A stretch of 64,000 nucleotides of DNA. It comes from Termitidicoccus mucosus (GTDB lineage Bacteria > Verrucomicrobiota > Verrucomicrobiia > Opitutales > Opitutaceae). Location: positions 1,550,001 to 1,614,000 of the forward strand of contig NZ_CP109796.1 in NCBI RefSeq assembly GCF_038725785.1, read 5' to 3'. Positions 38,701 through 61,587 of the stretch are shown here, in pieces (the stretch's first letter is position 1; every line of letters begins with the position of its first letter). The position numbers were made by a program, and so were the translations under genes. The notes below the pieces were generated by a model. It was given only the letters and a program-made list of their open reading frames with translations. It was not told the origin of the DNA and did not search any database.

Positions 38701-39131
38701 GCGACAGTGAAGGCTTCGAGCAGGTAAACCTGCGCGGTCATGTCGAAGTCGGCGCCGATCGGACCGTCGGAGGTGACGACCACCTCCCGGCTCATGTCGT
38801 CGAGACCTGCGTAGCTGGCGGTGATGCGCACGGGGCCGGGGGAGAGGTTTTCGATGCGGTAGTAGCCGTTGGCGTCGGTGATGGCCTGGATGCTCGTGCC
38901 GGGGACGGTCACGACCGCGTTGGAGAGATACTGGCCGGTGGCCTTGTTGGAGATGCGACCCGTGATGGCGCCGTTGCCCTCCGGCCTCACCGCCTGCGCG
39001 GCGCCGGCACCGACGCAGGAGGACGAGAAACGCCAGCGTGGGCAGATACCAGAGGCCGGGCGCACCGCCACCGCCGCCGCCACTGCCGCCACCACCGCCC
39101 CCGACGTCGTCCGGATTGCCCGGGCTGGCAT
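35757..39131 (-). CDS. TonB-dependent receptor with carboxypeptidase-regulatory-like domain; 5' end merged with upstream gene
   Basis: This is an outer-membrane receptor, probably for glycan fragments given its neighbours. After RPEGNGAITGRISNKATGQY comes a CarboxypepD-regulatory-like domain (about residues 50-130) and the plug (VVDNNIGELMKNLPGITIDY, then SSMRIRGMDPEFANITLDGN). A long barrel ends VMNLSLRADF. The start is a problem. A good signal-peptide end (CVGAGAAQA) precedes the domain at about 39000, but its hydrophobic core (LPTLAFLVLL) lies in a different frame, which is the frame of the upstream giant protein. The only in-frame ATG, at 39131, reads through the neighbour's glycine run as Ala/Val-rich sequence. 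Either a frameshift or deletion broke the start, or expression needs frameshifting. The barrel itself is intact. Confidence 0.85.
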   Translation of the reverse strand: MPARAIRTTSGAVVAAVAAAVAVRPASGICPRWRFSSSCVGAGAAQAVRPEGNGAITGRISNKATGQYLSNAVVTVPGTSIQAITDANGYYRIENLSPGPVRITASYAGLDDMSREVVVTSDGPIGADFDMTAQVYLLEAFTVAGEREGSSRALQEQRVAITQKAVFAADSFGNVVDNNIGELMKNLPGITIDYDGEDASSMRIRGMDPEFANITLDGNEVASIGDTGSRGFNLKSATMQNIEKIEINAAPTVDQPANTMGGQINIVTKSALRQKGRRMMFTSNLSLNTAELNFDKTPGGGRTPDRKIQPGFNFSWSENFSDLFAIAFDVGFSRSYRYNNEYTVPSGYNYDTHSLATTGNVVTKDTTGTVNSLQWRERSGSTESRMISLNLDYEPWGPNHSFFLKTSYNDYRGLGAYDRSMRVTAGSHDPSSDLYNMISPDGVSVSMSNSVNAADTRTYTFNAGAKHQFGSLKFDYNGYYSRAETKPGLDDNYNISYITRGLGMNIFDLAGNATGRLVQTAHNGQSLILPSDPRSYQNLDNYSELTLSQDFNNGVDEKLGARFSVEYPTSIRIPFTSHSIPVALSAGASYGEQSRAQTKHWRSHKMTGGSTEPGWTSAQPGLVQFSDPYFRDSWGFDTPIPTWVSPYLVNDYYAANPDAFYSQEQHDDRGHVQTYTVMSNDKKNTESTTAGYARLVFQPVPTLSVDLGIRYEVYKISGRKPEFLGMRTNRNVDGSVITSTSVENIYSTDNPNSQRNPTREKNLVPVRDPVTHEFIRFDEVDNPYYGMYDLADQTAALFTTTHYSHTFDGEYFPNIQVKWTTPIRNLTVRAARTQGIGRPRLSQITAETTYNQNGRTLETGNPNLQPQRSVKYDVSIDYTTSRDGEIRLSLYRQDIKDYIHQETTFFEITDLPEMVDNTDVFYYDDIAYFPVQMRTGIWRNVNYYNSGRGQNQGFEITYRQRLDIIHKSLRDFNFYGAFSYADPTIEAYRHTMRAPAAGNLTAQTKAEYQASPMAWVTVPMSGIQKRSGTLRLAYNGRKFSGSIAAFWVDNFARGVKTDPYLEITEQNAYVRFDLSLTYKLNSRWRASLDWRNMTDVGDDRKIMDRTGGYFTSGMVMNLSLRADF

Positions 39132-45100: not shown

Positions 45101-45783
45101 TTGACGCGGATTTCCACCGGGTTCGAGTCCTGGGTGCCTGTGCGAATTCCGGCCCCGAGAAATTTCGCGGTGCCGGAATTGACGATAAATTTGGCGGGGT
45201 TGTTTATGGTGCTTGGGGTCGAGCCATGGTTAAATTCCAAATAACCGCCATCGACGAGCAGCCGCGTGGTCTGGCCAAGTGTGAGGACCGTGCCTGTCAG
45301 GCTGCCACCGGGCGCGACGCTAATCACGTTGTTGGCATTGTTGTCGGTGTCGATGTTGACCGGCCCCCCGGCGTTCACCGGGCCGGCCAGCACAAGCGTG
45401 CCCAGGCCCCGCTTTGTGAGGCCGTTCGTGCCGATGGCCGGCAGGGCGAGCGTGGCGTTGGCCTCGGCGGGCAGGGTCACGGTTATGATGGAAGCACTGG
45501 CGGCCTCGAGCCCGAGCGTCCCCGCGCCTGTGATGAGCCAGCCGCCCGGATAATCGGTGTCGGTGTCGCCGAATGCCAGCGAGCCGACGGTGGCCGAAAC
45601 GCCGAGGTTTACGGTGACGGTGCCGGACACATCGAGTGTGTCGAATTTTGCGGCGCCACCCGCACCGTCGGCAATGACGCCGCCCTGCCAGTTGGCCGAA
45701 TCACCCCAGTTGCCGCCGGCCGGCTGCGTCCAAATGCCGTCGGCGGCGCGCGCGGAAAACGAAAAAAGCCCCAGCGGGAGCAA
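38371..45783 (-). CDS. Giant surface protein: autotransporter-type strands, Ig-like modules, NHL repeats, C-terminal anchor
   Basis: The frame spans 2,470 residues. A leader (LPLGLFSFSARAADGIW) is followed by autotransporter-associated strand repeats (GNWGDSANWQGG, AGTLGLEAAS and others) and many putative-Ig modules of the kind 'FSYQITADNTPTSFDWGG' and 'LPAGLSLDPATGLISGT'. From about 1824 to 2127 come NHL propeller repeats (NLYIADTANNSIRKIALDG, LYVADTGNHLIRKVDPATG). A final Ig domain has WYKDEQIIPGATGPSLTVED. The end GGGGGGSGGGGGG, APGLWYLPTLAFLVLL, RRCRRR near residue 2230-2260 is a sorting or anchor signal. After it ~210 residues are out-of-frame translation of the TonB-receptor gene, so the natural stop is lost. 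No ATG is available at the 5' end; TTG 45783 is provisional. It is probably adhesin- or surface-layer-like. Confidence 0.8.
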   Translation of the reverse strand: MLPLGLFSFSARAADGIWTQPAGGNWGDSANWQGGVIADGAGGAAKFDTLDVSGTVTVNLGVSATVGSLAFGDTDTDYPGGWLITGAGTLGLEAASASIITVTLPAEANATLALPAIGTNGLTKRGLGTLVLAGPVNAGGPVNIDTDNNANNVISVAPGGSLTGTVLTLGQTTRLLVDGGYLEFNHGSTPSTINNPAKFIVNSGTAKFLGAGIRTGTQDSNPVEIRVNGGEFFADTVNVQRNTGNTNGGNINAGFIITGGTSTLENVYIASGNSWGNMTVSGGDTLVTGTFAVGTGNSTSRGGRLHVSGGRLTATGTDGLMMVRSYNTVSHLTLAGGVTTFPKVNFGFDPAAATTGSATVTSGSIQFAMSGSAALYIGAGGIVKNVPGINTALVTFTSGTLGADESWTLSGSGALIMQLPAANTNNAVIRAADEFGVAHDITIDAMLSGAGGFTKTGGGMLTLSSTANSFTGEIRLLGGGLRVTGQVVGNPGIMTIPAAAGMGGSGTITRGLAYAAGATLLVDVDQVSGVMAGINVTGGVNLGGTLTVKPIIPRGAVLESGTYPIIRTTAGVSGNPVVTWDYSGPPGTVTFARSANNLDYLATVAMDPLQAPVITSALAVTGTESLPFSHTITADNWAMTYEATGLPAGLVLDPWTGEISGVTTFYGTANVTIKAVNRAGADTRTLVLTMDERTPAGIPVITSAASANGTVDLSGTAPVAFNYQITASNPRIWGYGAAPLPAGLSLDPATGLISGTLAGTGTTVITLSATNMLGTGTAGLTLSAWAVPVITSPTTALGMIDTPFSYQITADNTPTSFDWGGFPDDIFVIDKTTGVITTTHTAFLITTGSVGAKNHAGTGWAPLEVVIDIPQPRITSEPIVVLRLGQSVDYQITTTRPASKFYANQVPAGFTFDENTGRITGTPSAPGTIYMELAAENAVGLGYPFTLKIVTYGDAPAGALVWTGSAGLSGTTGVTGTATWDPPMQNWRMGNTPAAYTDGQDLYFDDSSTAGRRIIIESGTYAPNSMTFNISGAALTIQVSDTASFGVSGTREMRLIGTGTVGIAARDARGWGGVTRIVSGVYKVDDGFQAQTGTPRTGAMIFEGGSLLFDPLNRSRIYFENSLVVPGGIYALMDLRYAYSFNSNLEGSGTLELRNTNAQSAYHVYNGENFNGTLILSGSGQATLPSSNSWNFGTNLANTTLTIEENINMRPTTNSGGNTVYIGALAGGSPGAALNGGLNGPTGKPNSIYRIGRKNLDTHYAGSIGDWTVGAATTYNKAELIKEGAGMLTLSGSHNYIFPTTVAAGALRLTKTGRFASLDSTAAITVNPGAAFGGAGAVAPNVTFQAGAVLLVDADPETGDLAGLSVSGLVRFEGGAIEVRPVVTGSGRIANGVYTLLFGENEFAGRPQPVWTYPEDPLLHVQLEYVDSNRLQATVTGGAIPVPKFTGPSRADGMVGQPFSYTIEATSDPASPTQITVEDLPPGLTFNAATGLIGGTPTQAGFYDVDVDAGGVPAPDHYPLVKVTLGNASGDIVKKLAVIIYPAAFPVAVPVITQFNATPVTGTVAATRSRQMTVQIVATNLPTRFTASGLPNGVTVNADGRISGIPEVLGDYAIPVTASNLAGTGSATLHLEVTLPPPVIISPSGTIAIQHRPFFYQIAATNEPTGYWRSTFYETTDPLSITGAAVNYITLDAATGLITGTFPNVATAGTAPLLVTGTIRADGRTGRFSLPLTITVNPPEPVVTSGTEYLGMVGVPFTTVITASNMYPAYKPGYGVTNIPQGLNVSRASGEITGTPQAAGAYDVALVATNITGAGARQARFTISAASLLGTLAGAAGTSGDADGPATDARFNAPAGGIADRHGNLYIADTANNSIRKIALDGTVSTLAAGLGQPSSLVIDAAGTTLYVADTASGVIKKIDTATGAVTTLALTGSPALNAPHGLALDAAGNLYVADTGNHLIRKVDPATGSMTTVAGAGAAGSADGTGAAAGFNQPKGLALSVDGARLYVADTGNSTIRDIVLASGDVTTLAGVPGAPGSANGVAAAARFNTPEGLAADSAGVLYVADTGNHTIRSVDPKTGAVITFAGVAGLSGNMDGNAVNSLLTAPGGLTIDSNGEIYVFDTGNHTIRVLQVGPAIVTPPEDQPVTLGATATFSVMASGGPLPTYQWYKDEQIIPGATGPSLTVEDVRLSDVAFYRVVVTNPLGFRSARAYLSISDASPGNPDDVGGGGGGSGGGGGGAPGLWYLPTLAFLVLLRRCRRRAGGEAGGQRRHHGSHLQQGHRPVSLQRGRDRPRHEHPGHHRRQRLLPHRKPLPRPRAHHRQLRRSRRHEPGGGRHLRRSDRRRLRHDRAGLPARSLHCRRRARRFLARLAGAARGDHPESRLCRRLLRQRRGQQHRRADEKSPRHHHRLRRRGRLFHAHPRHGSRVRQHHPRRQRGRLHRRHREPRLQPQVCHHAEHREDRDQRRPHR

Positions 45784-46438: not shown

Positions 46439-49400
46439 ATGTCGCCCGTGATATCATTTTTTCCCCCTCGCGCCGTTTCGCGGCTGTTAAGAACCTTCCG
46501 GCTTCCTTCATCCATCCGACGCGCGGGTCCGGTTTTCGCGATGCTGGCAATGACATCGCCGTTATATACAATTGGCGCGCCGGCCTGGAGCCGAAACGAC
46601 TCCCTGCTCTTCACGGGGGAGTTCGTCATGTCAACATGGCATGGCGAGGGCGGCCTGCCGCACAATGTCATCAACGACGTGGTGCGCGATCCGCGCGGCT
46701 TTCTGTGGCTGGGCACGCAGGGCGGAGTGGCGCGCTTCGACGGACGATATTTTATTGATTATCCCATGCCGGACGAGTTCGCGCAGGGCCGCCACGAGAT
46801 ACGCGCGCTGGCCGTGGAGGACGAGCGCACCCTGGTGATGCTCACGGGGCACGGAAAGCTTGTGCGTTTGCGAGACGGCAAATTCGAACCGCACCCGGCC
46901 GACGCATTCCAAGGGAATTCATCGGCCGTGGATCTCGCGGTCGATGAAATGGGCGCCCTTTGGATAGGCACGATGGCCCCCGTTTCCCTCATGCGCTGGG
47001 ACGGCCGGCGCATGGAAACGTTCGGGCCGGAATCGGGCATAGGGCGGCGCAGCTCGCGCTTTTGCATCGTGCCCGACGGCAAGGAGCGCACCTGGGTGGC
47101 GAGCGGCGAATTCCTGGGCTGGTATGACGCGGACGGCCTGCACCGCCACGAGCCGCTGCCCGACTACTCTGTCATGGCCGCCAAGGCGCGCGACGGCGGC
47201 CTGTGGATTGCAGGCCGCGACAGACTCGCGAAATTTGAGAACGGAAACTTGAGCATCGTGCTGGCAGGCCCGGACTGGCCGGCGGCGCGAGTCGGCATCC
47301 AGGACATCTACGAAACCTCCGACGGCGTGCTCTGGCTGGCAACCCGCCGTGATGGCGTGCTCCGGCTGATTGACGGCAAACTGGAACGCCTGCCCTTGCG
47401 GCACGACCGCGTCGAGTCAATCAACGAGGACACCGACGGCAATGTGTGGCTCGGCACGAATGGCGGCGGGCTCATCCGGCTGAAGCGAAAACACCACGTG
47501 CTTATAAACTCGGCGATGGGCATGCCCAAGGACGCCAGTTCCTCCGTCACCGAGGACGAGACGGGCGCGCTGTGGTTCGCCAACCAGTCGGGCGGCGTGG
47601 TGCGCATCAAAAACGGCCTGACGCTCGCGATTCCCACGGAATCTGGCGGCATCCCCTACGCGAGCAATATTTGCGCCGACCAGCGCGGCACCGTCTGGAT
47701 CGGAGCGCTGGATGGACTCTACTCCGCGGTGGTGCAGGCGCACGACGATGCGCGGACGCTGCGGCGCCTCGAAATCAACATCGCCGGTGTGCAGACGCTT
47801 TTTTGCGCCCGCGACGGCGATGTCTGGACAAGCTGGAGAAACGGGCGCCTCGGACGGCTGCGCGACGGGAAATTGCGCGAATTCACGAACAAGGAAGGAT
47901 GGCCCGGCAAGCGTATCGCCGGTGTCATCGGACGACAAGGCTCCTGCGGCCCGGAGATCTGGGTTGCCACGAATTACGGCCAGTTGCTCAAGCTCGCGAA
48001 AGACGGTGAAAGCTTCGAGGAGCAACCGCTCCCGCCCAGACTGAAAACCACCCATATTTACGCGTGTCATATGGATGCCGCCAATCGATTCTGGCTGGCC
48101 ACCTCGGCCGGCCTGCTGCTTTGGGATGAACCAAAGCCGATGCTCTTCACCTGCGCGGACGGGTTCCCGGACGACATCCTTTACCAAGTCATCTCCGACG
48201 ACCACAACCGCCTTTGGCTGAGCAGCCGGCGCGGCATCTTCTGCGTCGAAATCGACAAACTGCTCGCCGCAAAATCAGGGCCGGGCCGCCCGGTTTCCGT
48301 CACCCTTTTTGGCCGCGACGATAATCTCGAAGGGCTCTCCGGCATGATCGGCGGGCAGCCCATGACTTGGAAAGGCCGCGACGGGCGGGTGTGGTTCGCG
48401 ACCTATCGCGGCGTGGCGGGCTTCGACGCCACGGGGTCATCCATCGAGACGGCCGGGGAGCCGCCGGTTTACATCGACAGCCTGTCCGCGAACGGCGTTG
48501 CTATTGCCATCCACTCCGACAACAGCCAGGAGCCCTTGCGCATCGGCCCCAATGCCATGCAGGTCGAGTTCTCGTTTGCCGCGCTGAACTTTTCATCGCC
48601 GGAACGCATGCACGTGCGCCGTGTGCTGGAGGGGTTCGACCTGGACTGGATCGACGCCACCGGGGAGCGCTCCTGCGTGTATTCCCGCCTGCCGCCCGGG
48701 AAATACGTTTTCCGCGTCGAGACCATGGGCGGCGGTGCACCGGGATCGCAAAGCTCGCTCGTGATCGAAGTCGCAGCCGCATGGTGGCAGACCGGCTGGT
48801 TTCGCGCCGGCATCGCCCTGGTCATTGTCTGCGCCGTGGCCTGGGTTGCGCGTCGCGTCTCGAACCGCATACTCCGGCAACGCCTGCGCCGTCTCGAACT
48901 CGAAAAGGCCCTCGACCGGGAACGCGCCCGGATCGCCCGCGACCTCCACGACGAACTCGGCAGCCGCATGAGCCAGGTGGGGTTTGTCGCGGACTCCGTC
49001 TGCCGCAAGGCCGGCGATCCGCGGCAAAAGGAGAAACTCTCGGAACTCGTCACCCAGTCGCGCGAGCTCGTCGAGGACCTTCATCGCATCGTGTGGACTG
49101 TAAACCCACAAAACGACTCGTGGCAGCGGCTCGCAGCCTACATATCACGCTACACCCAACGCCTCCTGCATGACACACCCATTACCTGCACCATTGATGG
49201 AGTGGACGCCATTCCCGATATCCCCGTGACCCCCGAAATCCGCCATCACTTTGTTGCCATCACAAAGGAAGCACTGAACAACACGCTCAAATACGCGCAG
49301 GCCGACCACATCAAAATCCAGATGAACGCCGACAATGGACACTTTAAAATGAGCATCAGCGACAACGGCCGCGGCTTCGATCCGGCGGCGTTGCGGAAAG

Positions 49401-49555
49401 ACGACCACTACGGCCTGGAAAACATGCGCGAACGCATGGCCGAGGCTGGCGGCCGGATAGAAATCAAAAGCCAGCCGGGTGAAGGCGCCCAAATCATGCT
49501 CGACATATCCCTGCAATACCGACCGCCCCACCCCATCCCCGGCAACGGCGGTTGA
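46439..49555 (+). CDS. Sensor histidine kinase with beta-propeller (two-component-regulator propeller) and Y_Y_Y domain
   Basis: The gene encodes 1,038 residues. After an N-terminal leader or anchor there are about twelve propeller repeats (for example RGFLWLGTQGGVARFDGRYF, NVWLGTNGGGLIRLKRKHHV, RLWLSSRRGIFCVEIDKLLA). These are followed by the Y_Y_Y immunoglobulin-like domain (SRLPPGKYVFRVETMGGG) and one membrane helix (GIALVIVCAVAWVARRVS, about 790-810). The kinase is of the HisKA_3/NarX type, with the phosphorylated His in ARIARDLHDELGSRM (about 837). The ATPase half has NNTLKYA, ISDNGRGFDP and GLENMRERMAEAGG. This periplasmic architecture is that of hybrid sensors for polysaccharide utilisation, but here receiver and HTH are on a separate protein (next gene). 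It probably senses pectin-derived oligosaccharides, by context. The gene is intact. Confidence 0.9.
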   Translation: MSPVISFFPPRAVSRLLRTFRLPSSIRRAGPVFAMLAMTSPLYTIGAPAWSRNDSLLFTGEFVMSTWHGEGGLPHNVINDVVRDPRGFLWLGTQGGVARFDGRYFIDYPMPDEFAQGRHEIRALAVEDERTLVMLTGHGKLVRLRDGKFEPHPADAFQGNSSAVDLAVDEMGALWIGTMAPVSLMRWDGRRMETFGPESGIGRRSSRFCIVPDGKERTWVASGEFLGWYDADGLHRHEPLPDYSVMAAKARDGGLWIAGRDRLAKFENGNLSIVLAGPDWPAARVGIQDIYETSDGVLWLATRRDGVLRLIDGKLERLPLRHDRVESINEDTDGNVWLGTNGGGLIRLKRKHHVLINSAMGMPKDASSSVTEDETGALWFANQSGGVVRIKNGLTLAIPTESGGIPYASNICADQRGTVWIGALDGLYSAVVQAHDDARTLRRLEINIAGVQTLFCARDGDVWTSWRNGRLGRLRDGKLREFTNKEGWPGKRIAGVIGRQGSCGPEIWVATNYGQLLKLAKDGESFEEQPLPPRLKTTHIYACHMDAANRFWLATSAGLLLWDEPKPMLFTCADGFPDDILYQVISDDHNRLWLSSRRGIFCVEIDKLLAAKSGPGRPVSVTLFGRDDNLEGLSGMIGGQPMTWKGRDGRVWFATYRGVAGFDATGSSIETAGEPPVYIDSLSANGVAIAIHSDNSQEPLRIGPNAMQVEFSFAALNFSSPERMHVRRVLEGFDLDWIDATGERSCVYSRLPPGKYVFRVETMGGGAPGSQSSLVIEVAAAWWQTGWFRAGIALVIVCAVAWVARRVSNRILRQRLRRLELEKALDRERARIARDLHDELGSRMSQVGFVADSVCRKAGDPRQKEKLSELVTQSRELVEDLHRIVWTVNPQNDSWQRLAAYISRYTQRLLHDTPITCTIDGVDAIPDIPVTPEIRHHFVAITKEALNNTLKYAQADHIKIQMNADNGHFKMSISDNGRGFDPAALRKDDHYGLENMRERMAEAGGRIEIKSQPGEGAQIMLDISLQYRPPHPIPGNGG

Positions 49556-49593
49556 TTCTTATTCCCCCAAAAAAACAAACAAAAAATATCCCA

Positions 49594-50256
49594 ATGCCCA
49601 TCTCAGTTGCCATAGTCGAAGACAGCGCCGCATGGATCGAGGAGCTCGAACAGGTCATCGCCCGGGATTCCGGGCTTCAACTCACATGCACGTGCCGCCG
49701 CATGCGCAGTGCGCTCGAACGGATCCCTCCCCTCGCGCCCGACGTCGTGCTCATGGACATCAATCTGCCCGACGGCTCGGGCATCGAGGCCACCGCCCGG
49801 CTCAAGGACATGCTGCCGCGGATCGAGGTGCTCATCTTCACCGTTTACGAGGACACCGAGGAGATATTCAAGGCCCTCGAAGCCGGTGCGAGCGGCTACC
49901 TGTTGAAACGCTCCTCGGACGTCGATGTCCTGAATGCGATCCACAACCTCATGAAAGGCGAGGTGCCGATGACCGGTGAGATCGCGCGCAAAATCATACA
50001 ATCGTTCCAGAAAAAACAGCCCATCCCGAGGGAATACATAATAAATGAAAACCTGACGCGGCGCGAAATGGACATCCTGCAAGCGCTGGCCCGCGGGCTC
50101 TCGATGAAGGAAATCGGCAGGGAATGCTCGATCAGTCCCGGCACGGTGAACTGCCACTTGAAAAACATCTACGCCAAACTCCACGTCCACTCGCGGATGG
50201 AGGCCGTGATGAAATTTCTCGGTGATCCCCATCCGCTCACGCGGGTCCAAATGTAA
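49594..50256 (+). CDS. NarL/LuxR-type response regulator
   Basis: The gene encodes 220 residues. The receiver begins MPISVAIVEDSAAWIEELEQ, with the phospho-acceptor Asp in DVVLMDINLPDGSG (about residue 55), Thr in LIFTVYEDTEE and Lys in GYLLKRSS. The LuxR-type HTH follows at about 155-210 (LTRREMDILQALARGLSMKE, then CHLKNIYAKLHVHSR). The ATG at 49594 is preferred to the in-frame TTG at 49552 because homology starts at MPISVAI and the extra residues are Lys/Pro-rich. It lies 38 bases behind the propeller sensor kinase and is its obvious partner. It is convergent with the glycosidase operon, whose promoters it may control. Confidence 0.93.
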   Translation: MPISVAIVEDSAAWIEELEQVIARDSGLQLTCTCRRMRSALERIPPLAPDVVLMDINLPDGSGIEATARLKDMLPRIEVLIFTVYEDTEEIFKALEAGASGYLLKRSSDVDVLNAIHNLMKGEVPMTGEIARKIIQSFQKKQPIPREYIINENLTRREMDILQALARGLSMKEIGRECSISPGTVNCHLKNIYAKLHVHSRMEAVMKFLGDPHPLTRVQM

Positions 50257-50403: not shown

Positions 50404-51073
50404 TCATCCGTTTTTCATTTGCTTGATTCGGATTACCGTCAGCGAGCGGGCGGGGGCCTCGCAGTCGAATAGTTCGCTGATTTTGATTTGCGTGGTCACG
50501 GGGAGAAGTGGCGTTGGATTCCCGGGTGTATTCTCGGCTTTCGGGTCGCCGGCCAAAACGGTTTTGACCGCCCCGGGGATGAAATTTTTTGCGCCGCCGA
50601 GCTTTATGCGGAGTCCCTTCACGGTGTCGCCGGGGTTGACCACCTTAAGGATGAGGTCGCCGGTTTTGCTGTCGCGCACCATGGAGAGCGCGACTTGGTC
50701 CGCCACGCCAGAGTTGCCCGCATGCGTATCGAGCCAGGTGTCGCCCGCGTTTGAGCCAAAGAGTTTTTGGACGTGGTAGTTGATTGTCGGATACACATGG
50801 GTGTTGGTGAAGTAGACGAGATTGGGCGTCCATTGCGTGCGGCCGATTTTCGCGCGAAGCGGAGCGTAGGAGGTGAGGCGGACGATGTCGCCGTTGCGCT
50901 CGAGTTGTGTCATGTAGGCGGCCTCGGCGAGCGCGGCGCGGAGTGTGCTTTTGCGGGCGATGTCGTGCGCGGCGTATTCGCCGACGTAGACTTTTGCGCC
51001 TGCGCGGTCGTAGCTGTCGTAGCGGTGGAGGTTGTCGAGAAACCACTTTGGCGATTTGTAGGGATGTGCGGTT
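50404..51073 (-). pseudogene. C-terminal stub of a GH51 alpha-L-arabinofuranosidase
   Basis: The open frame carries only the last ~220 residues of a GH51 enzyme: SPKWFLDNLHRYDSYDRAGA, KVYVGEYAAHDIARKSTLRA, ALAEAAYMTQLERNGDIVRL, then the beta-sandwich C-domain (VADQVALSMVRDSKTGDLIL) to the stop at 50404. The nucleophile Glu region (VGEYA) is present, but most of the (beta/alpha)8 barrel and the signal peptide are absent. There is no ATG before 50913. Upstream the frame runs directly into the stop of the three-module glycosidase gene, so the 5' part was lost by deletion at about 51075. An intact enzyme would remove arabinose from arabinan side chains. As it stands it is a remnant, unless fused by read-through. 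Confidence 0.82.
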
Positions 51074-51079
51074 TCATTC

Positions 51080-54000
51080 TTATTCCCGTGTTGTTTCGGG
51101 ACGCATCAGGCGCAGGTCGTAGACGCCGCCGACGAGCGAGCCCGGCTCGGCGATGAAGCGAATCCTCAGCACGCCGTTCTCCGCCTTCGCGAGCAAGTCG
51201 GCGGGGATGACGTAGCGTTTATCGATGAACCGGTCGCGCGCGGAGCCGTTCAATGCCTCCTCCGAGAGAAATTTCCCGTTGGCGGTGATCTGGAACCGGC
51301 GGTTTTGGTCCCCGCCCCAATACGTCACCACCAGATCGACCGCTTTCTCGTCGCGCGTTTGGAGGGTGTATTCAAACCATTTTCCGTGGCGCCAGACGCG
51401 ACCGCGGAGCACGCCGGTTTCCGTGTCCTCTCCGGCAAAGGCATGATCCACCTCGGGCTGCTGCTCGCCGATGGCGACGGAGTCAAGGGTGGCGGTTTCG
51501 CGGGCGAGCTTCACGCGTTCCTCCGCGGCGAGCTGTTGTTTTCGTCCGGCGAAGTCCTCCGGTGACGTGAGATGCCAATACATCTGGTAACGTGAATCAT
51601 GCAGGCGGAAGAACGGCATAAGCGGCAGGCCCCCCGCCGATGCGGGCTCAACGATGTCCACGAGCCGGAAACGCAGCGGACCGGCGGCGGAGTCGGACTT
51701 CACATGGTCGGGCAACGCGTCCGGGGTCGTCAGCAGCGAAGGCATTTGATCGAGCGGGACAAGCCGCCCGTTCGGCTTGTGGTCGCCCCGCCCGGGACCG
51801 GCGCGCAGGCCATCGAGGTCATCCGTGCCAGTCGGGGCGGCGAGCAGGATCGGCCCGCGCAGGATCGCATGCCAGGGCGAACCGTCCGGCAAGGCTTCCG
51901 CCGTGGTTCGCATGGGAAGCTCCAGCTCCACGCGATCACCATCGCGCCATTCGCGGCGAATCGCCGCGTAGGACGACGGCTTTGATTTCACCTCGACCGG
52001 CCTGCCGTTGACCCGGACGGCGAATGCATCCTCGGCGACCCAGGCAGGGTGCCTCAGGTGGAGGGCGAAGGTCGCGGGGCGATCAAGTTTCAAAGACAGG
52101 CGTGTGCGCTCCTCGTCGGGGAAGGACGTTTCCTGTCGCAGCGTGAGGCCGGAGTCCGCGACGGTGAGTTCGGAGGCGATGAAGAGATTGACGTAGAGAC
52201 CGTCGCCCGCCTGCGCGTAGATGAACTGGCCGTATTTGCCGGGGTTTTCCATGCCGGTGCCAACGCAGCACCAGAAGCCCTGCTCCGGCTGGGAATACAC
52301 ACGGTAGTGTCCGGGACGAAGCGGCGTGAAGTAAACATAGCCCGGATGATCCGGGTGGATCGAGGAAAGGATGTGGTTGAACAGGGCGCGCTCGTAGTAA
52401 TCCGCGTAGGAGGCATCCGGCGAGGAGGAGAAGAGCTGCTCTGTCAGGCGCAGCATGTTGTAGGTGTTGCACGTCTCGGGACCCTCGCGACTTTCGATCA
52501 CGGGCAGGAAGTTTTTCGGATCGTTGAAATGTTCTGCCACGCTGTTGCCGCCAAACGCGACGGAACGGGTGCGGACGACGGTTTCCCAAAAAAAGCGCGC
52601 GCCCGAACCGCCCTCCTTGTCCCCGGTCAGCGCCGCAATGCGTTCGAGGCCGATGACCTTGGGGATCTGGGTGTTCGCGTGTTTGCGGGTGAGTTCGTCC
52701 TTGTGCGCAATCAGCGGGTCGAGGACCGCGTGGTGATGGAAACGCCGCGCCGCGCGCAGGTATTTTTCATCGCCAGTCATCACATGGAGGTCGGCCAGCA
52801 CCTCGTTCATGCCTCCGTGCTCGGCGCCCAGCATGTCCTGCATCTGCTGGTCGGAAAGGCCGGATGTGACGCGTTCGGCCCAGTCACCCAGCCGGATCAA
52901 CAATTCGCGCGCCTTCCCGCTGCCGGTGCCCGCGCAAGCGTCGCGCAGCCCGGCAAAGGTCTTGTGGATGTTATACCACGGCACCCACTTGCCGTTGATT
53001 TCAAAGCGTTGCGCCTGGAATCGGCCGGCGGCCAGATCGGCCCAAAAGGCACGGCCGCCCGGGATGCCGCCGATATAGCCGTCGCCGTTTGCCTTCTGGC
53101 AGCGTTCAAGCTCGGCCAGCATGTAATCGAGGCGGCGCTGCAACTCGCGCCCGGGCGTGTCGGCACCCGAGGCGATCATGTTGGCCAGCGCGGCCAGATA
53201 GTGTCCGGCGGTGTGGCCGTCGAGCCCGATGTTCTCCCAATTCTCGTAAGACGGGGCGCGTGGCTCGAGTCCGGCTTCGCGCAGAAAGGGGGCAAGCAGC
53301 CGGTCGGGGTTGTGCGCCAGCAGGTAGGCGCGATTGGCCGCGATGGCTGCGGCAAACGGACTGCCTTCGAGCAAGCGCACGGAGGTCAATGGACAAAGCG
53401 TGACGGAGCGCGCCGGAGTCTTTGCGCCGGGCGGGGCGGCGACGGGGTTGGGCGGCCCGGGCGAGCCGCCCATGCCACTTGCCCCGCCAATCGGGGGCAC
53501 CGTTTTCAAACCGTCCGCATCGGCGGTGCCTTTTGCTATTCGGATTGGCTTGATGGAACCATCCTCATTATAAGAAAGCGGCTCCACACAAACACGGCGC
53601 TCCCAATTGCTGGGGCCGGCGACATGGTGGAAAAGATACCACTGGCCTTTGAATTCCGTGATCGAGCCGTGGATGTTGAGCGAGCGATTGTCCAGTATTT
53701 CTCCCTTGTATTCCCACGGCCCCAATGGACTTTGGGCCGTGCTGTAGGCCATCACATTGGCCTGCCCTTCCCGGCCTTTCGGCCGGATCGGATAACTCGC
53801 ATAATAAATGCCCTTTCGTTTGTGAACCCACGCGCCTTCGTAGAACTTTGGCATGTCCAGCATCTGAATCGGCCCGTCGCGGGTGATCATGTCCTCCTTG
53901 AGCTTTACCACGCCAAGTTGATAGGCGCCGCCAACGTAGAGATACGCCTGCCCGTCGTCGTCGATGAAGACATTCGGATCGATCATATAGCGGATGCCTG

Positions 54001-57000
54001 CTTCGTTTTTCTTGACCAATGGCTGCCCGAGCGCGTCCTTGAACGGGCCGGTGGGGGAATCCGACACCGCCACCCCGATCTGCCCGCCGGCGGGAAAATA
54101 GAAATAGTATTTGCCGTTTCGCTCGATGCAATCGGGGGCCCATGCCTCCGTATCCGCCCAGGCGATGTCTTTAAGGCTGGAAATAACGCCGTGATCGGTC
54201 CATTTCACCATGTCCTCGGTCGAAAAAACATGCCAGTCCACCATGCCCTTCCAGTTTCTGGCCCCGGCGGCGTCGTGCGAAGGATATATATAGAGTTTCC
54301 CATCAAAAACGCGGGCGGAGGGATCGGCGTGGAAATCCGGCAGAATCGGATGCCGGGCGGGGGCCGGCATTTGCCCGGTGGGCCGGCCGATCGCGGGCTG
54401 GACGGCAGGCGTGTCGATCGTCTTGCCGTCGGCGGCGGCCCCGGCAGCGGCAGGCAAAGGGTTGGGAGCCGGGGCGAACCGTTCCATCGGCGTCAATGCC
54501 ACCGGTCCGAGCAGGCCCGAATCGCGCGGCGTCCATTTGGCGGCGCTGAAGTTTCCATCCGCCCCGCGATTCTTCGCGATGCGCGCCGGATAATTGATAT
54601 TGTAGAATTTCTTCCAGCCCGAATCGCGCCGGTCGAGGTCGGCGATGCGGTTCACGGCGAGATTCGTCACCGCGATCTCGAGCGTGTTTTGCGCGGCGAG
54701 CAGGCCGTCCGGCAGCGTGAGTTGGAAAGGCGGCGAGAACAGCACCGCGAGTTCGCGGCCGTTGAGCGTCACGCGCGCGCTTTCCCCCACCCTGCCGAGA
54801 TCAAGCCGCCACGCCGTGGCGCGAGCAGCCGGACGCGCAAATGCGATTCTATACACCGCAGTGCCGGAGAATGCCTGGCAATCCGGGCCTTCGAGTCTGG
54901 TCCACGATTTTAGCTCAGGCATTTTCCGCGCCGCAGGCAGCGTCGGTCCGCCGGATGTGAAACGCAGTTCCCATTCGCCCATGATTGGCTCCGGAGTGCC
55001 CGCCGTTTTCCAATACGGAAAATCGGGGCCTTCTATCGGCGTCGTGAATGACTTCACGATCACTGATTCGGCGGGTGCGAGCCGCAGAAAAATTTCCGGA
55101 CGGCCGCCGGTCCCCGTGCGCAACGCCGCGCGCCCGCGCTCAGCGCGCAAGGCATCGAACAACGCTGCGGCGCGCGTGCCGGCTTGCAGCGGCACCCAGC
55201 CTTCGAACGAGTTTTCGCCTCGGTTGAGCAGGAAATAGGTGTGGCCTTTGCCGTGCACGCGCCGCTCGAAATGCAGCCCGCAATCAACAAGCGATTCACG
55301 GGCAACCCCGGCGCGGGCGAGCAGTTTTTCCAGATCGCGGCCAAGCAGCAGGCGGCCTTTATCCAGCGGGGAGATCGTGATGCCGTCCGACTCCGTCGCG
55401 CCTTCGCGGAACGTTTTGATATTCGCTTTGAAAGCTGCGCGCCGCGCTTCCAGTTGTCCGAGCCCGGGCACATCCTCCGGAAAGCTTTTGAGGAACACGA
55501 TTGTCGCACCGGCTTCGGCGAGGCGACGCAGTTGCCGCAGTGTTTCAAGCGGCATGAATTTCATCTCCGGCACGAGCACGACGCGATAGCGACTGCCGCC
55601 GGTCACGAGAGCGCCGTCGCGCACCTGCACATCCGCGAGGAGCCGGTCGGTGATAAAATCGAACGCATAACCGCGATCCAGCAGCTCTTGCGCGACGGTC
55701 TGCGTGCTGCCCAACCGTCCGCTTTGGGAAAAGTGCGGCATCGCGCCGTTGCCGCGTTGGGACCAGATGTCGTGAATCGGAAAGTAGAACAGAATGTCGT
55801 TGCCCGGTTTGTCCGCTTGCAGGAATGACTGCACGCGCGCCACGTAGCCGTTGAGCGCGGCGGAATCGGCCCAGATCGGGTTCGCCGGGTTCAACTCCAC
55901 CGAAGCGTAGAACTGGTGCCCCGGCCAGGATTCGTCCGGCGGGGAAAACGCGGTGCCGTGGTAGCAATTAAAATTCACGCCGCCGAGGAACATGAGGTCC
56001 ACGCGCCGCTTGATGTCGTCGAGCGTCGAGACCCAGTGCTCATCGAGCCATGTGGCTGTCTCGGCGCCGGTCAGAGGCTTGCCAGTCACGTGCGCCGCGG
56101 ATGAGGCGAGTTTCATCCCGACGATATTCGTGCCCTCGGTTTCCGGAATGCCGCTCGCCGCGTAGAGGTCGATGATGTTGGCGGGCGAGCCGTGCGCCTG
56201 GTTGCGAATAACCGCGTTGTGTGTGGCGGCCCACTTCGCCCACGGCACGGTGAACTCATCGAGCAACAAATCGGAGATCGTTTCGCGATGATCGGAGATC
56301 ACCCGGGAGTTTTTTTCTTCCGTGTCGTTTCCAAGGAATGCGGGCAGCTCATCACGCAGATCGTAGCCGCGGCGGCGTTTGAATTCGTCGAAGAACCGCG
56401 GCGTCCAGTTCGCTTCGCCGCTGGCGTCATCGACTTCGTAGGAATCGTTGAAATAGGCGCGCAGCCGGTTGGCGCGATGGTTCGCGTAGGCCTCGTCGAA
56501 ACGCTTCAGATAGTTCGCAAGCGAGGCGGACGAGAAGTGATCGATCACATCGCCCTCGCCGCCGGGACCGGCGCGCTCGACCTGCTTGCCGTGCCAGCCC
56601 ATGAACACCGCGCAAAGTGTCCAATCGCCTTCGGGCGCGGTCCAGTCGAGCCGGCCGTCCGCATCGACCTTGTCGGTGAGATTGATTTTTTGATCTCCCG
56701 ATGCCGAATATGCGACGAGCGCCTGCAACTGCAATTTTCTGGGAAACCGCGCCTGATCGAGCGCGAGATCCTGAAGGTTGGTGTTGGATGCGACAGGGTC
56801 CTTCAGTTCGGAAATATCGGCGCGGCGACGCCCCGCCACACGCACGAGCGGCTGGTCGGTGGCGGTGATTTTTTCCGCAAGCCGCAGACCGCTTTTCACG
56901 GTGTAGGTTTTGGTGACGATGTGGCGCGCGGCATCCCGGGCATCGACCCACGGTCCGCCAAAGGGCCAGCCGTTGCCTGTCGCCATGTCGATGCCGAGAT

Positions 57001-57406
57001 CAAGGCGCTGCGCTTCGTCGAGCACGTGGTCGAGCAGATCCATCCACTGCGGCGAGAGATATTGCCTGAAACGGTCTTCCTGTCCGCGAACGCCGTAGAT
57101 GGGGGTGATCTCAAGGCCGCCAAGTCCGGCCTTGGCGTATTTTTCCATCTCGGAGGAAAAATCCTCCTTCGTGCCGATGGAGCCAAGCCACCACCAACGC
57201 GTCCACGGCTTGGTCTGCGAGGTGATTTCCGGCCAGTCCAGGTCGGAGGCGGCGGGCGAAGGCATCGCAAGCGCGCCGAGGAGAAGCGCGACGCACGACG
57301 CGCGGAGGGCGTGGTTAAGTATCCCGGCTTTATCGGGTCGCGGATATTGTGCATCCTGCGCGTGAGTTGTGCGGGCGGGGTGGCTCATGATTGTGCGGGA
57401 ATCCAT
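51080..57406 (-). CDS. Three-enzyme fusion: GH106 alpha-L-rhamnosidase, GH43, and GH127/GH146 beta-L-arabinofuranosidase
   Basis: One uninterrupted frame of 2,108 residues, secreted (leader ASCVALLLGALAMPSPAAS; an alternative ATG is at 57388). Residues ~50-1010 are a GH106 rhamnosidase (WPEITSQTKPWTRWWWLGS, then MATGNGWPFGGPWV and KPLTGAETATWLDEHW). After a Pro/Ala linker, residues ~1020-1320 are GH43, with catalytic Asp in ILPDFHADPS, the second Asp in MIDPNVFIDDDG and Glu in FYEGAWVHKR. After a Gly/Pro linker, residues ~1330-2000 are GH127/146, with Glu and Cys in GPETCNTYNM and the nucleophile pair in FWCCVGTG. A C-terminal beta-sandwich ends the protein. All catalytic motifs seem intact. 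Together they would strip rhamnose and L-arabinose from rhamnogalacturonan side chains. It lies 59 bases behind GH28 in one operon. Confidence 0.92.
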   Translation of the reverse strand: MDSRTIMSHPARTTHAQDAQYPRPDKAGILNHALRASCVALLLGALAMPSPAASDLDWPEITSQTKPWTRWWWLGSIGTKEDFSSEMEKYAKAGLGGLEITPIYGVRGQEDRFRQYLSPQWMDLLDHVLDEAQRLDLGIDMATGNGWPFGGPWVDARDAARHIVTKTYTVKSGLRLAEKITATDQPLVRVAGRRRADISELKDPVASNTNLQDLALDQARFPRKLQLQALVAYSASGDQKINLTDKVDADGRLDWTAPEGDWTLCAVFMGWHGKQVERAGPGGEGDVIDHFSSASLANYLKRFDEAYANHRANRLRAYFNDSYEVDDASGEANWTPRFFDEFKRRRGYDLRDELPAFLGNDTEEKNSRVISDHRETISDLLLDEFTVPWAKWAATHNAVIRNQAHGSPANIIDLYAASGIPETEGTNIVGMKLASSAAHVTGKPLTGAETATWLDEHWVSTLDDIKRRVDLMFLGGVNFNCYHGTAFSPPDESWPGHQFYASVELNPANPIWADSAALNGYVARVQSFLQADKPGNDILFYFPIHDIWSQRGNGAMPHFSQSGRLGSTQTVAQELLDRGYAFDFITDRLLADVQVRDGALVTGGSRYRVVLVPEMKFMPLETLRQLRRLAEAGATIVFLKSFPEDVPGLGQLEARRAAFKANIKTFREGATESDGITISPLDKGRLLLGRDLEKLLARAGVARESLVDCGLHFERRVHGKGHTYFLLNRGENSFEGWVPLQAGTRAAALFDALRAERGRAALRTGTGGRPEIFLRLAPAESVIVKSFTTPIEGPDFPYWKTAGTPEPIMGEWELRFTSGGPTLPAARKMPELKSWTRLEGPDCQAFSGTAVYRIAFARPAARATAWRLDLGRVGESARVTLNGRELAVLFSPPFQLTLPDGLLAAQNTLEIAVTNLAVNRIADLDRRDSGWKKFYNINYPARIAKNRGADGNFSAAKWTPRDSGLLGPVALTPMERFAPAPNPLPAAAGAAADGKTIDTPAVQPAIGRPTGQMPAPARHPILPDFHADPSARVFDGKLYIYPSHDAAGARNWKGMVDWHVFSTEDMVKWTDHGVISSLKDIAWADTEAWAPDCIERNGKYYFYFPAGGQIGVAVSDSPTGPFKDALGQPLVKKNEAGIRYMIDPNVFIDDDGQAYLYVGGAYQLGVVKLKEDMITRDGPIQMLDMPKFYEGAWVHKRKGIYYASYPIRPKGREGQANVMAYSTAQSPLGPWEYKGEILDNRSLNIHGSITEFKGQWYLFHHVAGPSNWERRVCVEPLSYNEDGSIKPIRIAKGTADADGLKTVPPIGGASGMGGSPGPPNPVAAPPGAKTPARSVTLCPLTSVRLLEGSPFAAAIAANRAYLLAHNPDRLLAPFLREAGLEPRAPSYENWENIGLDGHTAGHYLAALANMIASGADTPGRELQRRLDYMLAELERCQKANGDGYIGGIPGGRAFWADLAAGRFQAQRFEINGKWVPWYNIHKTFAGLRDACAGTGSGKARELLIRLGDWAERVTSGLSDQQMQDMLGAEHGGMNEVLADLHVMTGDEKYLRAARRFHHHAVLDPLIAHKDELTRKHANTQIPKVIGLERIAALTGDKEGGSGARFFWETVVRTRSVAFGGNSVAEHFNDPKNFLPVIESREGPETCNTYNMLRLTEQLFSSSPDASYADYYERALFNHILSSIHPDHPGYVYFTPLRPGHYRVYSQPEQGFWCCVGTGMENPGKYGQFIYAQAGDGLYVNLFIASELTVADSGLTLRQETSFPDEERTRLSLKLDRPATFALHLRHPAWVAEDAFAVRVNGRPVEVKSKPSSYAAIRREWRDGDRVELELPMRTTAEALPDGSPWHAILRGPILLAAPTGTDDLDGLRAGPGRGDHKPNGRLVPLDQMPSLLTTPDALPDHVKSDSAAGPLRFRLVDIVEPASAGGLPLMPFFRLHDSRYQMYWHLTSPEDFAGRKQQLAAEERVKLARETATLDSVAIGEQQPEVDHAFAGEDTETGVLRGRVWRHGKWFEYTLQTRDEKAVDLVVTYWGGDQNRRFQITANGKFLSEEALNGSARDRFIDKRYVIPADLLAKAENGVLRIRFIAEPGSLVGGVYDLRLMRPETTRE

Positions 57407-57465: not shown

Positions 57466-58920
57466 CTACCTGTTCGGATTGTCCTTGTCGGGCTCCTCGA
57501 GGAATGTGCCGATCGTGATGTTTTTCTCGGTTATGTTTTCGGCGTGTTCATAGCGGTTTTTCTGGCCGCGAGCGGTGTTGATGGCGATGTTGTCGAGCGT
57601 CACGTTTTTCACGGGCATATCCTTGTCGCCAAGGATGCGGAATGGCGTAAGGGTTTCTCCGGCCTTTATATTTCTCATGGCGATATTGCGGATCGGGGTG
57701 AGCCGCTCCTCGTAGGCGGGGACGAGTTTGCGCCATTGGTAGAGAACGTCGGTCTCGATGCCGAGCACGCCCATCCTGAACCGGGCGCCGGCGGCGTCGA
57801 TGTTCTCCACCGTGATGTTTTCCACAAAGCCGCCGCGCCGGCAGTTGGTTTTAATATAGAGGATGTTGAACGGTTTTTTGTCTTTCGGCTCGAAGCGGCA
57901 GTCATGCACGTAAACATTGCGGACGCCCCCGGAAAGCTCGCTGCCGATGGCGACAAGCTGGTGTCCGTTGAGGACGGTGCAGTTGCGGATGACGATGTTT
58001 TCCGACGGCGCGTTCAGCCGCCAGCCATCGTGGTTGGTGCCCGATTTGATGGCGATGGCGTCGTCGCCCTGGTCGAAGGTGCAATTTTCGACGAGGAGGT
58101 TGCGCGTGCCCTCGGGATCGATGCCGTCGTTGTTGTGCCCATGGGCGGAAACATTGAGGTGGCGGACGACGACGGAATCGCAGAGCAGCAGGTGGATCGT
58201 CCAGAACGGGCTGTTGCGGATGGTCACGCCCTCGATGAGGACGTTGTTGCAGCGGTTGAACTGGATGAGCTGGGGACGAAGGTTGTTCTCGCCCTCGGCC
58301 ATCTGGCGTTTTTCAACGGGCACACCGGTGGAGCCCATGGTATAAAGCCGCTTGAGCGCCTCCATGTGGGCCGGCGGGCGCGAAGACCATCTTTTCCATG
58401 TGTCCATGCGGGGCTCGATTTTGCCTTCGCCGGTGATGGCGACGTTTTCGCAACGGAACGCATAAACAAGGGGCGAGTAATTGAAACACTCCCATCCCTC
58501 CCAGCTCGATTGTACGGCGGGCAGGTAGTCCTGCGGATTGTCGCTGAAGGAGAGGACGGCGTCCTTCGCGAGGCGGAGGTTCACGTTGCTTCGCAGGTGG
58601 ACGGAACCGGTCAGCCACACGCCGGCGGGGATGACAACGCGCCCGCCGCCGGCATCATGGCAGGCGGCGATGGCATTGCGAATGGCCGCGGTGTTGTCGG
58701 TTTGCCCGCCGGCCCTCGCGCCAAAATCGGTGATGACAAAGTCACGCCCGGGGAAAACCGGCACCCGGACTGGCTGCATGGGAAACGGCGCTTTCACGTG
58801 GATCTCCTCATGGCGGATTTCATCATCACCGGATTGGGAGGTAGCGGCTGGCACAAGATCAGCCTTGATCGTCAGCGGCACGACAGTCCAGAGCAGGATG
58901 GGGATAAACTTTGCTTTCAT
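57466..58920 (-). CDS. GH28 polygalacturonase-family glycosidase
   Basis: The gene encodes 484 residues. The signal peptide MKAKFIPILLWTVVPLTIKA is followed by a right-handed beta-helix. Family signatures are present: HNNDGIDPEG (NxD variant, about residue 263), FDQGDDAIAIKSG (the catalytic Asp pair, about 287), NGHQLVAIGSE (GHG variant with Gln, about 320) and LYIKTNCRRGG (RIK variant, about 353). The variants are those of exo-acting or rhamnogalacturonan-type members rather than plain endopolygalacturonases. It likely trims galacturonate residues from pectin in the periplasm or outside. It sits between the broken GH2 (102 bases upstream) and the three-module gene (59 bases downstream), consistent with one operon. 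No damage is visible. Confidence 0.92.
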   Translation of the reverse strand: MKAKFIPILLWTVVPLTIKADLVPAATSQSGDDEIRHEEIHVKAPFPMQPVRVPVFPGRDFVITDFGARAGGQTDNTAAIRNAIAACHDAGGGRVVIPAGVWLTGSVHLRSNVNLRLAKDAVLSFSDNPQDYLPAVQSSWEGWECFNYSPLVYAFRCENVAITGEGKIEPRMDTWKRWSSRPPAHMEALKRLYTMGSTGVPVEKRQMAEGENNLRPQLIQFNRCNNVLIEGVTIRNSPFWTIHLLLCDSVVVRHLNVSAHGHNNDGIDPEGTRNLLVENCTFDQGDDAIAIKSGTNHDGWRLNAPSENIVIRNCTVLNGHQLVAIGSELSGGVRNVYVHDCRFEPKDKKPFNILYIKTNCRRGGFVENITVENIDAAGARFRMGVLGIETDVLYQWRKLVPAYEERLTPIRNIAMRNIKAGETLTPFRILGDKDMPVKNVTLDNIAINTARGQKNRYEHAENITEKNITIGTFLEEPDKDNPNR

Positions 58921-59022: not shown

Positions 59023-61587
59023 TCATTGGCCTGTGGTCATCAGTCTTTTTTTCGCGCTTTTCAGACCCGGGACGGACGCCGTGATTGTCACTTCCCCGGG
59101 GACCAGTCCGGCGCGGAGGATGGCGAGCGCGCGGCCATTGTGCAGCATCCGCTTGTTCCCGGCGAACAGTTCGTCGCTGCGATGGTCGCCGTTGTCCACC
59201 GCGATCAGGCGGGCCGCGCCGGACACCTCAAACGTCACCTCTCCTGCGGCGTCCGGCACTTCGCGGCCCTCGCGGTCAACGGCGCGCACTTTCATATACT
59301 GCAAATCAAGCCCGTCGGCCCGCCATGCGCCGGTTTCCGCCTCGAGCCGCAGCGCGACGGCTTTGTCCGTGGTTTCAAGTTGATGGCGGGCGACCTCCCC
59401 GCCGCCGTTGCGCGCCACGGCCACCACCCCGCCCTCGCGGTAAGGCACGTCTTTCCAGAAGATGGCGTTTCGCCGCGCCGGGTCGTCAATTATATTCTTT
59501 TGGACGCCGAACGATTTTCCGTTTATAAACAGCTCCACCTCCTCCGCGTTTGTATAAGTGACCAGGTTCAGCCTGGCACCCGACGCGCGGTTCCAATGCG
59601 ACGACATGGGCATTTGCCCCACCATGACATCGTTCCACTCGATGCTTTCCGCCTCCCTGTCCACCACCCCGATGCGCACCAGCGGCGTGTCGTCGAACAT
59701 ACTTTTGACAAAATAAGCCTGCGGGAGAGGTTCGAGCGAGTGGTCGAAAAATGAATAATTCCAGCCCTTCGCCGGCCAGCCCCTCGACTCGCCCCAGTAT
59801 TCGATGGCGCCCCAGTAGGCCAGCCCCACCACCTTGCCGAGATCCATGCCGTAGTAGGCTTTGCCCATTTCGCTGGTCGCGGCCTCGCTCTGATAAAGGA
59901 TCAGGTGCGGGAATTGTTCGGCGTACTTGGGAAACGCCGGATAACGATAATTATAGCTGGCGATGTCGGTGACCACCGACAATTCGGGCGGCTCGACAAC
60001 CACGTTGAAACTCGGGTCCTCCTTGGTCACCGCGTTTTTGCGCGCGGGAAACATGGCCACGGTGGTCTTGCGCGTCGGGTCGTGGCGTTTCGCCAGCACG
60101 TCGAGAATACGGTAACCGGTCACGCCCCAGTCGCCGGTGGGAAACCCTGTCCACTCTTCGCGGACTTGCAGCTCGTTGCCGAAACTCCACATGATGACCG
60201 AGGGGTGGTTGCGGTCGCGCTTTATCCATTCGGCGACGGCAGCGGGCCAGAGCATCATCCACGGGATGCGCCCGCCGGCATACTGCTGCGACCGTCGAGA
60301 ATACGGTAACCGGTCACGCCCCAGTCGCCGGTGGGAAACCCTGTCCACTCTTCGCGGACTTGCAGCTCGTTGCCGAAACTCCACATGATGACCGAGGGGT
60401 GGTTGCGGTCGCGCTTTATCCATTCGGCGACGGCAGCGGGCCAGAGCATCATCCACGGGATGCGCCCGCCGGCATACTGCTGCGACCATTTATCGAACAA
60501 CTCGTCCACAATCAAAATGCCATGCTTGTCGGCGAGACGCAGGAACGACTCCGAGTAGGGATTGTGCGAGGTGCGGACATGATTAAAGCCGCTCGTAGGC
60601 GGCGCCCACCGCGCCCAAGTCATGGTGGTTGGCGATGCCCTTTAATATGATTTTCTTCCCGTTGAGCTTGAAACCGAAGCCGGGCGAAAACTCGATGTGG
60701 CGGATGCCGAAGGCTTCCGTCACGCGGTCAACAATTTTGCCGTCCAATGCCAGCGTGACCACCGCCGTGTATAAATGAGGCGTTTCGCACGACCATAATT
60801 GCGGCGTTTCGATATTCATCGCTGGGAGAGCGATCTCAACCGTCAGTTTCTTCGATTTTTTCGGGGCGGACTGGCGTGTCTCGGCGACCAGCCGCCCGCC
60901 GGGTGCGTATAGCTTCGCCTCGATGTCCACTTGCAGCTGCTTGCCGCGCAATCCCTCCACCTCGACCTGGACGCCGACTTCGGCGTTGCGCTCCGAGACC
61001 TCCGGCGTGGTTACAAAAACGCCATGCCGCGCGACGGCGATCTCATTTTTCACCAACAAATGCACATCGCGGTACAAACCGCCGCCGGTATACCAGCGCG
61101 AGTTGCCATCCATGCCGGTGTCGGCCCGCACGGCGATCACATTTTCACCTTCGTAATTTATATATTTAGTGATGTCGGCCTCAAAGCCAAGGTAGCCGTA
61201 ATCCGTCCCGCCCACCCTGGTCCCGTTAAGCCAGACATCGCCCGTCAGCATGATGCCCTCGAAATCCAGCAGCACACGCTTGCCCCTCCAGTCCGGGTCG
61301 GCCCGGAACGATTTGCGATACCAGCCGGCGCCCATTTTTTTGAATCCGCGCGCGCCCCTGGCCGACTTTTCCCAAGGCTGCTCGATCTGGAAGTCATGCG
61401 GCAAATCAACCGCCCGCCAGTCCGAGTCATTGTATGCGGCGGCTTGCGCGCCCTCCACGTCGCCCGCGCGAAACTTCCATCCGAAATTAAACAGCAGGGA
61501 GCGGCGCGCATCCCCGGAATCCTCACCCGCAAACAGCGAGAACGCCGCCAGCAGGCCGATTGTTGTCATTATGATTCTTTTATACAT
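59023..61587 (-). pseudogene. GH2 beta-galactosidase-like gene, split by a 194-bp tandem duplication and a second lesion
   Basis: The N-terminal frame (61587-60583) has a signal peptide (MYKRIIMTTIGLLAAFSLFA), the sugar-binding domain (AGWYRKSFRADPDWRGKRVL) and the Ig-like domain. It ends at KGIANHHDLGAVGAAYERL and a stop. The next frame resumes at GFNHVRTSHNPYSESFLRLA and runs into the exact duplication at 60099-60486. The last frame (stop at 59023) carries the acid/base Asn-Glu motif MWSFGNELQVREEW and the rest of the barrel and C-terminal domains (KVVGLAYWGAIEYWGESRGW). Apart from the two breaks the protein is complete. An intact form would remove beta-galactose from RG-I side chains. Removing one duplicate copy would repair one of the two frames. 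Confidence 0.85.
60099..60486. repeat. Exact 194-bp tandem duplication inside the GH2 gene
   Basis: Bases 60099-60292 and 60293-60486 are identical by eye, beginning CGTCGAGAATACGGTAACCG and ending CATACTGCTGCGAC. The length is not a multiple of three, so it shifts the frame. The unit includes the GNEL catalytic motif, which is thereby present twice. Confidence 0.92.

Follow-up and report, generated by a model that had tools for sequence, protein, structure and literature searches.

Introduction

In Bacteroides thetaiotaomicron, the α-L-rhamnosidase BT4145, a member of glycoside hydrolase (GH) family 106, acts on backbone oligosaccharides of rhamnogalacturonan I (RG-I) together with GH28 enzymes (PMC8002723), and BT0349, a GH146 enzyme, acts on the β-1,2-linked arabinofuranose of arabinan (PMC10850190). 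These two proteins are encoded by separate genes in different polysaccharide utilisation loci (for RG-I and arabinan, respectively), and the GH43 enzyme Xsa43E is likewise the product of a gene of its own. Here we describe a gene of Termitidicoccus mucosus (Verrucomicrobiota; Opitutaceae) in which modules of these three families lie on one chain, each having one of the three proteins as its closest characterised counterpart, with catalytic residues in common. The gene is located in a window of 64,000 nucleotides, the whole stretch of DNA that was analysed (positions 1,550,001 to 1,614,000 of contig NZ_CP109796.1, assembly GCF_038725785.1), within a genome of 7.92 Mb in two contigs. It is the final gene of a minus-strand operon, after GH28 and GH2 genes, and its product is probably one secreted enzyme with several catalytic activities that acts on fragments of pectin (RG-I) and was built by recombination within the operon.

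Three catalytic modules in one predicted secreted protein

An open reading frame (ORF) check of the window found no internal stop over the 2,108 codons of the gene (51080-57406, minus strand), and GC content by codon position shows no break across either junction; the fusion is a genuine open frame in the assembly. Pfam searches placed a GH106 domain at residues 237–753, along with an N-terminal stretch, a GH43 domain at residues 1018–1284 and a GH127-type catalytic domain at residues 1342–1726, followed by GH127M, DUF4986 and DUF6805. The N-terminal signal peptide, whose hydrophobic core spans approximately residues 33–50 and which has no lipobox cysteine, is the sole strongly hydrophobic segment of the protein. 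Secreted multi-catalytic carbohydrate-active enzymes (CAZymes) are marked by a signal peptide followed, in the same frame, by more than one catalytic module; with both features, the protein is predicted to belong to that class.

The GH106 module scored 247 bits against Pfam PF17132 (cut-off 29), and its residues E324 and E449 align with the catalytic acid and base of BT0986 (E461 and E593), as judged against structures 5mqm and 5mwk, the latter an E-to-Q mutant. Because its score against the BT4145 equivalog model NCBIfam NF049897 was 881 bits, under the required 1300, we classify the module as BT4145-like and not as a BT4145 equivalog. For the GH43 module (150 bits against Pfam, cut-off 32.2), alignment recovered the complete Asp/Asp/Glu catalytic set (D1028, D1143 and E1190), and the nearest solved chains are 4nov (Xsa43E) and 5a8c; judged from the nearest characterised groups, it would release arabinose and/or xylose, its sugar specificity being uncertain.

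The third module had been placed in GH127/146 by a preliminary description of this DNA, made from the sequence without database searches. Of the two families only GH146 is upheld, since the match to 5opj, the structure of BT0349 (E = 4e-223 to 4e-224), far exceeds those to GH127 structures (6e-24 or weaker), which assigns the module to the GH146 type. Aligned to 5opj, it retains the Glu/Cys/Cys/Cys set of the zinc site and nucleophile (E1644, C1646, C1713 and C1714), the acid/base E1625, and W1474 at the position of the active-site Trp162 of BT0349. The alignment extends to the C-terminus of 5opj, so that the rear domains up to the C-terminal jelly roll, including DUF4986 and DUF6805, are matched by sequence. 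This is the sole BT0349-like GH146 of the genome, other GH127-type matches being partial and at most 36% identical. By these comparisons all three modules are complete with their catalytic residues intact; the ORF analysis, Pfam searches and alignments thus bear out the earlier description of a single frame carrying three full modules with intact active-site motifs.

A paralogous operon retains the unfused arrangement

A second locus in the same genome (L029, C1:3532000-3550000, 3.532–3.550 Mb) is colinear with the fusion operon, with identities of 83% for the sensor, 92% for the regulator, 86% for GH28, 81–83% for GH2 and 88% for GH43. In L029, the GH2 gene is intact (811 codons, L029:10996-13431), and GH43 is a free gene of 337 codons (L029:8388-9401) that has a signal peptide and begins 6 nt after the GH28 stop. 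The DNA match between the window and L029 runs up to the GH28 stop, is interrupted, and resumes at the mature part of GH43; at the interruption, the window holds 3.1 kb of GH106, versus 112 nt in L029 that include the GH43 signal peptide. A free outgroup GH43 with its own signal peptide, 76% identical, occurs in another family of the class, and most relatives encode GH106 and GH146 unfused. Since GH43 is free and carries a signal peptide both in L029 and in the outgroup, and nearly all of the top-scoring GH106 loci are unfused, the sequences indicate that the fused state is derived. Simple loss of stop codons, already doubted in the preliminary description, was ruled out as its origin, since GH43 and GH146 have both lost their own signal peptides, which are missing from the linkers.

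As a separate observation, the L029 operon adjoins conjugative-transfer-like genes (TraG/TrwB type and AAA) and a gene for a KilA-N protein, for which reason it may lie on or beside a mobile element.

Both linkers contain sequence of traceable origin

The two 42-residue windows of the protein richest in Pro, Ala and Gly begin at approximately residues 976 and 1291, which are the two junctions, confirming that low-complexity Pro/Ala/Gly linkers occupy both. Linker 1 has only weak, GC-rich matches to its own genome. Pfam searches with the bare linker sequences gave nothing useful, and the source of linker 1 was therefore identified by direct comparison with the Opitutaceae metagenome-assembled genome (MAG) Gx485_bin97 (JAISGL010000384.1; L034/L053), which encodes the nearest GH106 (approximately 82% identity) and, like the gene described here, joins it to a second enzyme in a pectin fusion with the same linker start. 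There, the second module is a GH28, and neither GH43 nor GH146 is present; here, a 20-codon GH28 stub remains. Residues 988–1008 of our fusion align with the GH28 start of the MAG protein without gaps and in frame (GAAADGKTIDTPAVQPAIGR and GAVADGATINTAAIQTTIDR, respectively), at a score that was not reached by any of 2000 codon shuffles or by any of 9,066 windows taken from other DNA. Linker 1 is thus best described, from this comparison, as a recombination scar that holds a GH28 N-terminal remnant colinear with the GH106-GH28 gene of the relative.

The centre of linker 2, AGTGGCATGGGCGGCTCGCCC, occurs with at most one mismatch at 82 places in the genome, its own included, while the reversed control occurs at none. 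The copies are palindromic and frequently form head-to-head pairs, and the element in linker 2 has the features of a repetitive extragenic palindrome (REP), being short and dispersed, with a GTGG-tagged end and frequent dimers. It agrees with the family consensus at 33 of 46 positions. Of 20 arm positions, 14 pair, compared with 19 in the consensus; linker 2 shows no unusual RNA folding for its composition (z = −0.15), which fits a partly degraded right arm. These features identify linker 2 as a probable scar containing a translated REP; it may have begun as intergenic DNA that already carried the REP and later came to be translated, or as a short coding linker into which the REP was inserted.

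In its tag, a GTGG start, the element resembles most GTAG-20 REPs of Opitutus terrae, the species reported to have the most intragenic GTAG REPs (PMC3733652). As with those intragenic REPs and the Rickettsia palindromic elements (PMC2229807), a short dispersed palindrome is translated in frame within a gene; unlike them, the element described here occupies the linker that connects two catalytic modules of a fused enzyme. Copies also occur in frame within other genes of this genome, namely those for a thiamine pyrophosphate enzyme (between domains), an ABC transporter (in a linker between domains) and a histidine kinase (in the ATPase domain), with sites including L171:2881-3013, L172:2973-2992, L179:3026-3045, L173 and L174. 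Most relatives lack the 40–60 residues found at these sites; one (L182) has a similar translated insertion at the same place.

The triple order appears new, whereas pairwise fusions recur

We searched for the same arrangement in overlapping genome sets that comprise approximately 760 other Verrucomicrobiota genomes in total; the large scans scored the best two candidates per genome, which is adequate because a complete triple would rank first. No full-length GH106-GH43-GH146 protein was found in the genus, in 200 genomes of the family or in 273 of the order, and a GH43-GH146 query across 388 genomes of the phylum gave no full-length match. A scan of 84,980 species with a single-protein query, which reaches close relatives only and is dominated by GH106, returned GH106 matches at all of its best 80 loci, one of them fused, as GH106-GH28; the full-length GH106 frames at the others measure approximately 907–1,035 codons, and GH28 and GH2 flank many of these stand-alone relatives too. 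The open-access literature likewise yielded no GH106-GH43-GH146 enzyme.

Pairwise fusions, by contrast, recur within the order, as GH106-GH28 (L034), GH43-C2-GH146 (L047 and L048), GH146-GH43 (L046) and GH146-GH43-C2 (L137). The last three kinds place the same two families on one chain without GH106, and where GH43 precedes GH146, it is of another type that carries GH43_C2. Because pairs of these families are joined repeatedly, the kind of fusion is already known, and on the sequences compared only the triple order itself is new. The order was thus rightly called unfamiliar in the preliminary description, whose further statement that the activities are encoded by separate genes in known loci holds for the triple but not for pairs.

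Evolutionary rates of the fused modules

The ratio of non-synonymous to synonymous substitution rates (dN/dS) is 0.07 for GH43 compared with its L029 paralogue and 0.19 for GH106 compared with that of MAG Gx485_bin97, and the identities of the fused modules to outgroups lie within approximately 3 points of those of stand-alone relatives. The fused modules appear to evolve no faster than stand-alone relatives, which argues against long neglect.

A model for the origin and function of the fusion

We propose that recombination brought a GH106-GH28 fusion, resembling the one in the nearest relative, into a GH2-GH28-GH43 operon, that the GH28 part of this fusion would then have been lost down to the 20-codon stub and joined to the mature start of GH43, and that the GH146 gene would have become attached behind GH43 through the segment with the translated REP, its other end abutting a GH51 gene that would have lost its first two-thirds. 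Three exo-glycosidases would in this way be exported together on one chain: GH106, in alternation with the GH28 of the adjacent gene, would take rhamnose off RG-I backbone oligosaccharides at their non-reducing ends, while GH146 would take off β-L-arabinofuranose caps and GH43 would take α-L-arabinofuranose (or xylose) off side chains. The preliminary description had all three modules trimming side chains, which does not agree with the action of BT4145-type GH106 enzymes on the RG-I backbone (PMC8002723). We assign the enzyme to RG-I because a BT4155-like GH28 and a GH2 lie upstream, because GH28 and GH2 also stand beside many GH106 relatives, and because of the roles of BT4145 and BT0349. The gain would lie in holding the activities close together at a fixed stoichiometry, the chemistry not being new; the sequence itself carries no sign that joining gives a gain.

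Several observations weigh against this proposal. Among solved structures, those closest to the GH43 module belong to arabinofuranosidase/xylosidases from work on xylan, so its place in RG-I breakdown is suggested by gene neighbourhood. The locus shows breakage, in a GH2 frameshift and a GH51 truncation, and the genome retains an intact GH2-GH28-GH43 operon in L029, so that the fusion may be in the course of being lost. Furthermore, as the fusion is known from one genome only, selection after fusion is inseparable from selection before it.

These points bear on the possibility that the gene reflects nothing but the decay of its operon: chance deletions would have fused three genes in frame, and the long protein would be poorly made or cut, without benefit from the joining. 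A split GH2 and a truncated GH51 on either side, junctions made of remnant and repeat sequence, a paralogous operon that could supply part of the function, and the absence of the triple from every relative scanned are all as such decay would leave them. We nevertheless regard it as unlikely, given that both junctions are in frame, the internal signal peptides have been lost, the frame is free of stops over 2,108 codons with catalytic residues intact, the modules are not evolving faster, and the fusion holds the only BT0349-like GH146 of the genome. An assembly or sequencing artefact, by which separate genes were wrongly joined or a frameshift was missed, would account for the occurrence in one genome only, yet it is very improbable, as it would need two independent in-frame errors in a genome of two contigs with an unbroken codon pattern, and the linkers have identifiable origins (a GH28 stub and the genome's own REP) in place of chimeric ends. 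The preliminary description had also regarded the linkers as designed by selection, that is, as Pro/Ala/Gly-rich spacers selected for length and flexibility. Their composition, the richest in these residues of the whole protein, is what such selection would give; since the GH28 stub (79% nucleotide identity) and the REP explain the content of both, with later tuning possible but not needed, we give this idea very little credence.

We therefore favour a secreted multi-catalytic enzyme assembled by recombination, for which the building steps are still legible in an unfused paralogue within the genome, a two-module relative as the intermediate kind and traceable linkers. A broader conjecture, that REPs and leftover module ends serve as ready-made linkers for splicing the exo-glycosidases of an operon, and that the triple enzyme is faster on branched RG-I with its backbone and side-chain activities joined, seems to us rather doubtful. 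One protein and its isolated modules would be enough for a direct test of whether CAZyme linkers are selected or are tolerated scars.

The surrounding operon and other observations

The GH2 gene of the fusion operon is broken by a net deletion of 41 nt near 60588, which causes a frameshift. The GH51 relic, from which the first 485 residues are gone, starts 14 nt past the fusion stop codon. Coordinates of these and the other features are given in Table 1.

Table 1. Positions in the window of the fusion gene, its predicted parts and the neighbouring genes.
Feature	Position	Strand	Basis or remark
GH106-GH43-GH146 fusion gene	51080..57406	-	2,108 codons + stop
N-terminal region with signal peptide	57245..57406	-	hydropathy maximum of whole protein; cleavage site inferred
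GH106 module, BT4145-like α-L-rhamnosidase	54482..57244	-	Pfam, NCBIfam, structure alignment
GH106 catalytic Glu codons	56435-56437 and 56060-56062	-	alignment
Linker 1, residues 976-1017	54356..54481	-	
GH28 N-terminus remnant in linker 1	54384..54444	-	61 nt, 79% identical to GH28 start after GH106 in MAG Gx485_bin97
GH43 module	53537..54355	-	Pfam; 88% identical to stand-alone paralogue L029:8388-9401
Linker 2, residues 1291-1333	53408..53536	-	
Translated REP-like palindrome in linker 2	53441..53486	-	dispersed genomic copies, consensus comparison
GH146 module with DUF4986 and DUF6805, BT0349-like β-L-arabinofuranosidase	51083..53407	-	Pfam, 5opj alignment
GH146 acid/base codon; nucleophile Cys codon	52532-52534; 52268-52270	-	alignment
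GH28 gene (BT4155-like), separate	57466..58920	-	directly upstream of fusion
GH2 (β-galactosidase) gene, split	59023..61587	-	ORFs 60583-61587 and 59023-60489
GH51 arabinofuranosidase relic	50404..51066	-	last ~216 of ~700 residues
Reg_prop sensor histidine kinase	46439-49555	+	convergent with operon
LuxR-type response regulator	49552-50256	+	convergent with operon

Elsewhere in the window, a frame of 2,470 codons (38371-45783, minus strand) has matches to an autotransporter-type β-strand repeat and to NHL-like sequence. The genome is rich in GH106, with 26 profile matches, some of them several per gene, and several GH106 genes are frames of 1,200–1,600 codons with extra domains, for example L140:2078-6925, which has laminin-G and GH2-type β-sandwich matches.

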